64,000 bases of DNA from the NCBI GenBank assembly GCA_017547165.1, contig JAFYQK010000010.1:1-64000 (forward strand), written 5' to 3'. The notes beneath the pieces are model-generated. The model was not told the origin of the DNA. It was given only the letters and a program-made list of their open reading frames with translations, and did not search any database. The DNA comes from Bacteroidaceae bacterium. Lineage in GTDB: Bacteria > Bacteroidota > Bacteroidia > Bacteroidales > Bacteroidaceae. Shown piece by piece: positions 1,191-59,888 of the stretch (position 1 is its first letter; the number at the start of each line of letters is the position of its first letter). Made by a program: the position numbers and the translations under genes.

Positions 1191-1227
1191 AAAAAAGCGT
1201 GGAGCCAGCACTAATGCTCGTTCCACG
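1191..1227 (-). terminator. terminator of the structured ncRNA
   Basis: On the minus strand CGTGGA...TCCACG (plus 1222-1227 and 1198-1203) encloses a second hairpin AGCA-TTAG-TGCT and is followed by C and six Ts (plus 1191-1196). This is a clear intrinsic terminator with no open frame ending upstream of it. Confidence 0.8.
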
Positions 1228-1503
1228 GTCTAAAGGCTCTCGCATTGCCCCAATCTGTCCGAAACGAGCAACGCTGAAAGCCCCACACCAATGCATATAT
1301 AAACACCATAGATATGAAGCCGTTTAGACATCATATTTTGAGATGTAAATAATACACCACTTGGAGGATTCCCGTTGCCTTGTATCGACAGATTGATGAA
1401 TTTGCGAGATTCTTAGACCGTCAAAACAAAGCGTACAGTAACGCCATTTATGTATATGTATCATACCCGCCTTATGCCCATTGGGACTTTCTGTACGAGA
1501 ATG
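1196..1503 (-). ncRNA. structured ~300-nt non-coding RNA, family not identified
   Basis: The ends are set by a TATATTTG promoter element (plus 1510-1517, minus strand) and the terminator at 1191-1227. Three helices are visible by eye. A 7-bp helix CGTACAG/CTGTACG (plus 1491-1497 with 1432-1438) caps the 5' domain. A perfect 9-bp long-range helix pairs plus 1413-1421 with 1225-1233 (ACGGTCTAA). A 14-bp hairpin with one bulged base pairs plus 1268-1282 with 1235-1248 (GCGTTGC/GCAATGC, then GGCTTTC/GAGAGCC). The longest frame inside is a 62-residue minus-strand ORF (plus 1324-1512) that starts upstream of the expected RNA start and has no ribosome-binding sequence. It does not look like RNase P RNA, tmRNA or SRP RNA: I do not find their signature sequences. 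A 6S-like regulator or another Bacteroidales-specific RNA is possible. Confidence 0.65.
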
Positions 1504-1509
1504 ACATTG

Positions 1510-1517
1510 CAAATATA
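1510..1517 (-). promoter_or_regulatory. -7 promoter element of the ncRNA
   Basis: CAAATATA on plus reads TATATTTG on minus, an exact match to TAnnTTTG. The -33 region is weak (GTTT rather than TTTG). Confidence 0.65.
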
Positions 1518-25137: not shown

Positions 25138-25209
<72 letters not shown>

Positions 25210-59814: not shown

Positions 59815-59888
59815 GGTGCGGTAGTTCAGTTGGTTAGAATACTAGCCTGTCACGCTAGGGGTCGCGGGTTCGAGCCCCGTCCGCACCG
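59815..59888 (+). tRNA. tRNA-Asp (GTC anticodon)
   Basis: 74 nt. Acceptor GGTGCGG/CCGCACC, anticodon loop CTGTCAC (GTC) on stem CTAGC/GCTAG, T-arm GCGGG-TTCGAGC-CCCGT. No CCA is encoded. Confidence 0.95.

Follow-up and report, generated by a model that had tools for sequence, protein, structure and literature searches.

The switching of accessory surface and defence genes in Bacteroidales, an order that dominates gut and rumen communities, is known mainly for invertible promoters and capsule loci. In Bacteroides capsule leaders, UpxY proteins counter premature termination of transcription. Riboswitches with terminator platforms occupy 5′ leaders, combine a covarying multi-helix core with alternative terminator and antiterminator pairings, and occur in several copies per genome before different genes. 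The RNA family described here resembles such riboswitches in all these features, and differs from them as a candidate without a known ligand, a common pathway or an Rfam match. The copy under study is located in a 64,000-nucleotide stretch of DNA from a Bacteroidaceae bacterium, hereafter the window. That the element is a structured, conserved, real RNA is near certain, and it is very likely a cis-acting leader; its sequence makes a terminator/antiterminator switch likely. Taking these parts together, we consider it quite probable that the element is a cis-acting transcription attenuator, with its own promoter, a pseudoknotted sensor domain, and a terminator before an accessory gene.

The element runs along the minus strand of the window from position 1517 to 1191, and consists of TATATTTG, a strongly folding stretch of about 300 nt, and a hairpin followed by six T. 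All features described below are on the minus strand unless stated otherwise. The exact promoter element recognized in the initial annotation is present as TATATTTG (1510–1517), a TAnnTTTG sequence that we take to be the promoter −7 element. The strong terminator is likewise found (1191–1227), as a hairpin of CGTGGA (1222–1227) and TCCACG (1198–1203) with TTTTTT (1191–1196). The predicted fold of 1191–1517 has an energy of −111.9 kcal/mol, compared with a mean of −83.0 for shuffled sequences (z −6.16), and none of 100 shuffles folds as well. The proposed limits of 1191 and 1517 are slightly short at the 3′ end, where covarying pairing reaches bases just past the U-run. The downstream gene (450–1076) encodes a DUF975 protein of 208 amino acids (PF06161, E 1.1e-33), and the U-run ends 115 nt before its start codon. 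Positions 1672–1760, upstream of the promoter of the element, contain a series of related AAGATTA/AGATAGTAATC-like units that look by eye like a degenerate or inverted repeat.

A BLAST search with the 327 nt against 41 genomes gave seven matches at six places in the window's own genome, matched 12 of 24 congeners, and had no hit in the 16 genomes from other families of the order. The order of sequence blocks is the same in the 21 copies inspected; ends were assigned in all of them, and a TAnnTTTG box lies upstream of each of the 17 assigned first. The covariance model R1 was built on 19 copies without their variable tip and has 221 positions and 39 pairs. R1 identifies ten matches in the window's own genome, one of which is the window copy. 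With this genome counted, 87 of the 101 genomes in the genus carry at least one match and none more than 12, and in the order there are matches in 61 of 344 genomes and 38 of 195 genera. In the phylum sample, R1 matches 2 of 247 genomes, the window's own and a second with an E-value of 6.5e-4. Named genomes were also scanned with a DNA pattern, which yielded at least 118 stretches, and R1 matched 115 of 118; the titles among the scan matches include Prevotella, Hallella, Xylanibacter, Phocaeicola, Paraprevotella, Parabacteroides and Alistipes.

The covariance search proposed in the initial annotation, with 6S RNA included, bears out its description of a structured RNA outside the named families, as does the covariation across homologues. 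No Rfam 15 family overlaps the element at or above gathering score in the window, at L031–L034, or at 18 further loci, where six matches lie outside the RNA. A permissive scan of positions 1081–1640 returned three weak matches, all below gathering scores. The sole matches above gathering scores in the window are two tRNA genes on the plus strand (25138–25209 and 59815–59888). The 6S RNA is a rod-like molecule, and the predicted fold of the element is rod-like as well. However, we rejected this identity: the 6S model (RF00013) has no match in the window's own genome and matches 5 of 14 control genomes, and the present family differs from 6S RNA in its ten copies in the genome and its position as a gene leader.

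Such an RNA is not described in the titles and abstract openings among the results listed by full-text literature searches. The candidate RNAs from the human microbiome in the accessible part of PMC8040213 are similar in that they include Bacteroidetes candidates near varied genes, and differ in their stated size of 38–132 bp. The main text of PMC11109978 contains neither Bacteroid- nor Prevotella or Parabacteroides. Since supplements and most subscription papers are outside the scope of this search, a fragment of the RNA may already be present in a published candidate table, for example in the supplement of PMC8040213. Because of its size, rich covariation and crossing helices, the RNA is useful for structure work, and because Rfam 15 has no match to it, also for annotation.

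Alignment A7 contains 100 chosen sequences, which are a subset of all matches; they were aligned with the model and lean towards it. The 39 pairs of its eight helices, which include j, k, l, n, o and the terminator stem, are paired in 96.4% of cells, with two-sided changes at 31 of them. The covariation score is 0.613, compared with 0.219 for shuffled alignments and 0.065–0.095 for alignments with the 3′ side slid, and the cells with two-sided changes number 840, compared with 258 ± 14 and at most 92, respectively. Given how large the signal is and how low the slid controls score, the covariation of the predicted helices is hardly in doubt, despite the model-leaning alignment. Uncompensated changes at paired positions of homologues, which the initial annotation had regarded as evidence against its reading, do not weigh against it here, since in the 100 aligned sequences the changes come with compensation. 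Mutual information calculated on A7 is strong for helices j, k and l, provides only traces of i–i′, and does not show m–m′. A7 was fitted to a model lacking m–m′ and i–i′, and we therefore used alignment-free tests. In the partner-exchange test, the pairing of a strand with its own partner is compared with its pairing with the partner from another sequence, whereby the set of strands is kept and relatedness is uncorrected; the same applies to the permuted duplex energies. Four unrelated control strand pairs gave z values of 0.6, −0.8, −0.2 and −0.4.

The 5′ part of the window copy is formed by a variable hairpin domain P0 (1456–1507), which is taken from the predicted fold and differs among copies, and by the P1 hairpin (1427–1447; duplex energy against permuted partners z −4.3, 0/200; partner exchange z 3.5, 0/300). 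Helix i pairs 1420–1429 with 1380–1389 and crosses helices j, k and l, and is supported by partner exchange (z 4.7, 0/300; z 6.2, 0/200 with narrower strands). Helix j is built from strands 1412–1421 and 1225–1234, the latter overlapping the left arm of the terminator (model helix 1, two-sided changes in 6 of 7 pairs, 97.7% paired). These strands contain the long-range helix noted previously, ACGGTCTAA (1413–1421) with TTTAGACCGT (1225–1234), which indeed shares bases 1225–1227 with the terminator stem. Helix k joins CTCGCA (1403–1408) to TGCGAG (1239–1244) and covaries in all six pairs (model helix 2, 99.2% paired); the 7-bp helix of the initial annotation appears in the predicted fold at 1403–1409/1238–1244. 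Helix l (1390–1395 with 1251–1256; model helix 4) also has two-sided changes in 6 of 6 pairs and is 95.4% paired. The 14-bp helix with one bulge that had been seen by eye has no exact counterpart, and the nearest structure is a stack of 2, 10 and 2 bp with single-base bulges at about 1385–1399/1248–1262. Helix n connects GGCAACG (1373–1379) to CGTTGC (1268–1273), and its right strand overlaps strand m of the antiterminator (model helix 6, two-sided changes in 2 of 7 pairs, 94.3% paired; z 3.2, 0/300). Helix o has its left strand inside 1363–1371 and its right strand, GGTGTGGGGC, at 1280–1289 (model helix 7; z 5.0, 0/300). The apical arm (1290–1362) varies in length and sequence among copies.

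The genes that follow the RNA are diverse, and encode BspA-type surface proteins, lipoproteins, restriction and other defence proteins, and NusG paralogues, besides regulatory and uncharacterised proteins. Pfam and PADLOC families were searched in 108 of the 112 first downstream proteins (all but those at L090, L105, L150 and L196), and the 25 most frequent families per set were considered. Among the Pfam families listed, BspA-type leucine-rich repeats are present in nine proteins and PEGA in three; LytTR, SNF2 and ResIII domains in at least three each; NusG in at least two; and dynamin-like and PLD-like domains in at least two each, with single cases of AbiH, the HsdR N-terminus, BACON and a protein kinase. 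The PADLOC matches listed include AbiH, methyltransferases, DrmD-like and HKD-Snf2 helicases, a GajB-like helicase and others; many of them are domain-level and are no proof of defence systems. By simple count, a hydrophobic N-terminal stretch is found in 54 of 112 first downstream and 43 of 204 upstream genes, and a lipobox-like motif in 22 and 10 of them, respectively. Among the families listed for the 108 proteins, no single pathway unites the first downstream genes, and therefore a general signal would suit the RNA. Cyclic di-GMP was rejected as this signal because GGDEF domains are too rare: they occur in 13 of the 344 genomes of the order and not in the window's own, and three genomes contain both GGDEF and the RNA. 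We tentatively put forward that the RNA represents a new, highly copied Bacteroidales riboswitch class, in which a signal molecule made or perturbed during phage or envelope attack unlocks a scattered surface and defence regulon by means of a double-lock antiterminator. A single RNA family in front of surface and defence genes, with up to 12 matches per genome, would add an RNA-based layer to their control.

It is also conceivable, but rather unlikely, that a protein exerts the control instead of a small molecule. A putative NusG paralogue of the UpxY/LoaP type would bind the pseudoknotted RNA, or the polymerase while it pauses, and enable the polymerase to pass the terminator. A general factor of this kind fits the large RNA and the great diversity of its genes, and has a precedent in the antitermination of UpxY capsule leaders and LoaP/put-type systems, where premature termination is countered; the first downstream genes of a few copies, at L188, L193 and L130, are NusG-like. 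However, these are only about 3 of 112 first genes: of the 48 first downstream proteins in alignment A6, two have a NusG domain among the families listed (L188 and, by eye, L193), L130 is a third by eye, and for the other 60 proteins the best 25 of 68 families were considered. Furthermore, to our knowledge specialised NusG proteins act on one locus each, whereas the present RNA is one family before many unrelated genes.

In the attenuator that we favor, the decision between termination and read-through would be made at the 3′ end of the RNA. The complementarity of eight bases noticed earlier, AACGAGCA at plus-strand positions 1263–1270 with plus-strand positions 1215–1222, is present, and in the RNA it grows to 11 bp between strand m, TGCTCGTTTCG (1260–1270), and strand m′, TGGAACGAGCA (1215–1225). 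Partner exchange supports m–m′ (z 6.5, 0/300), which comprises 10–12 bp in 13 of the 14 copies viewed. Strand m′ overlaps the terminator left arm, and strand m shares bases with helix n. The closing helix H is formed by the 5′ linker and P1 left arm (1441–1460) with the terminator right arm, U-run and post-U bases, so that P1 and H are rivals for the P1 left arm, and the terminator right arm is common to H and the terminator. Because of these common arms and bases, the predicted combination of P1, helix n and terminator and that of H and m–m′ exclude each other, wholly or in part, and each arm of the terminator has its own competitor. The mutually exclusive helices covary across homologues, in agreement with the earlier suggestion that two folds compete at the 3′ end as in an attenuator. 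The o′ strand was rejected as an alternative partner of the terminator right arm, as the two do not covary (z 0.4).

The predicted stability of m–m′ exceeds that of the terminator hairpin in 99 of 100 sequences, with medians of −18.1 and −12.1 kcal/mol for the whole stem. In the window copy, m–m′ (−16.2) is barely stronger than the terminator (−15.4). The n/o helix, which competes with part of strand m, has a median of −22.7 and is stronger than m–m′. When the window copy is folded as a single sequence, P1, the terminator and the pairing of the linker with post-U bases all co-occur; hence H is exclusive only where it draws on the P1 left arm and the terminator right arm. On its own, the P1 left arm pairs weakly with the terminator right arm (partner exchange z 2.9, 1/300; duplex energy z −2.8, 0/200).

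We propose the following mechanism. The promoter of the element would start an mRNA, the first 330 nt or so of which would fold as a pseudoknotted sensor with an intrinsic terminator at its end. P1 and helix n would form locally in the OFF fold, and the hairpin CGUGG/CCACG with the U-run would halt RNA polymerase. In the ON fold, m would pair with m′ and occupy the terminator left arm, while the 5′ linker and P1 left arm would pair with the terminator right arm, the U-run and the post-U bases. Both terminator arms would thus be occupied and the gene transcribed. A cellular signal, either a small molecule or a protein, may set the balance by way of the core of helices i, j, k and l. Speed would favor the local hairpins, stability would favor the long-range fold, and the signal would favor one of the two states. 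Termination and read-through, as well as the choice of the fold that is the bound one, are what we infer.

The same 3′ end could belong to an RNA at which no termination takes place in vivo, and the closed domain with its post-U helix would then serve as a post-transcriptional 5′ stability element, a translation regulator or a ribozyme. The covarying pairing does run just past the U-run: the 5′ linker pairs with the first 12 nt beyond it (z 5.6, 0/500), in the window with GTTTATGT (1183–1190), and the next downstream stretches give z values of 0.7 and 0.9. A looser version of this test gives only z 3.5, with two controls at z 1.7 (15/300) and 0.0. Tested as a duplex, H has an energy of −15.9 with its own partner and −13.3 with permuted partners (z −10.4, 0/200), and no other alignment-free test gives a z value of this size. 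Because the linker/post-U helix comes after the U-run, it is unable by itself to decide termination. However, the terminator stem is kept (model helix 8, 95.8% of cells paired; partner exchange of its arms z 5.0, 0/300) and competes with a covarying antiterminator, which is the usual design of attenuators. We therefore regard a purely post-transcriptional role as improbable, and retain the attenuator as the preferred reading.

Genomic context was counted for 122 hits, with a threshold of at least 70 amino acids for open reading frames. The 80 R1 matches from one part of the scan were included except for the weakest, L137, and 43 of the 88 matches from the other part were used (33 loci and ten copies from the window's own genome), with four cut or weak matches and 41 loci left out. 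In 107 of 111 loci, the nearest downstream reading frame shares the strand of the RNA, at a median gap of 74 nt past the core, and in four it is on the opposite strand; the upstream neighbors are on the same strand in 68 cases and on the opposite strand in 45. In 107 of 117 loci, TAnnTTTG is found in the 320 nt that precede the core, compared with 17.9 expected from shuffles. It is present in 2 of 96 gaps between the RNA and the gene, which are shorter, two being about or below the chance number. For most downstream genes, no separate promoter is thus seen between the terminator and the gene. The leader from the promoter to the end of the core has a median length of 327 nt (111 leaders). A ribosome-mediated attenuator with a leader peptide would call for a conserved short reading frame in the leader. 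Reading frames of at least eight codons starting with ATG are found in 109 of 111 leaders, and the commonest ATG column is occupied in 82 of 100 sequences; the 15 longest-per-leader peptides viewed are mixed, and some share a stretch from the conserved core.

This arrangement suggests that the RNA is probably the leader of the downstream gene and not a stand-alone molecule. The transcript described in the initial annotation hence stands as a structured RNA, but not as an independent one; most likely it is a 5′ leader from a multicopy family. A family of independent trans-acting small RNAs ending at the terminator would account for the promoter, the terminator and the defined length, but is very improbable given the same-strand gene directly behind the RNA in 107 of 111 loci and the absence of a TAnnTTTG box from 94 of 96 gaps. 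Three of the features expected of a riboswitch can be traced in the family: its position places it in leaders, covariation supports a structured domain, and at the level of sequence m–m′, the terminator, P1 and H provide an expression platform with mutually exclusive helices. For the window copy, which precedes a DUF975 gene, an orphan riboswitch-like leader is the probable identity.

The copies have diverged deeply, with a mean identity of 0.58 among 100 sequences. A MITE-like mobile repeat transcribed by chance would explain the many dispersed copies per genome and the complementary ends, but this divergence, the constrained orientation and gene distance, and ends that covary pairwise instead of being fixed terminal repeats make it the least credible explanation, with hardly any probability. 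Three copies from the window's own genome, L032, L033 and L034, are divergent (41–43 bits) and keep the helix order and architecture by eye; in L032, the usual left terminator arm seems by eye to be absent. Three pattern hits without an R1 match, in Myxococcales (L101), Aestuariimicrobium (L104) and Diaphorobacter (L168), look like chance. Records titled Firmicutes, Clostridiales or Eubacteriales bacterium (L098, L179 and L182) carry the RNA on contigs of 3–7 kb, likely as a result of binning contamination from Bacteroidales. The copy at L027, also from the window's genome, has no BLAST match in the phage and plasmid collections. In IMG/VR, the RNA is present in two of four pattern-matching contigs, L201 (3669–3939) and L202 (391–634), which may represent the edges of prophages or bacterial contigs that were classed as viral. 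The next two genes in L201 are related to two behind L027, and the next gene in the 85.7-kb contig L202 begins like an elongation-factor-type GTPase. An Rfam abiF RNA (L086, 1254–1290) neighbors a Prevotella ihumii copy, and another copy of the RNA shares its locus with a DUF805b element (L126, 4852–4886).
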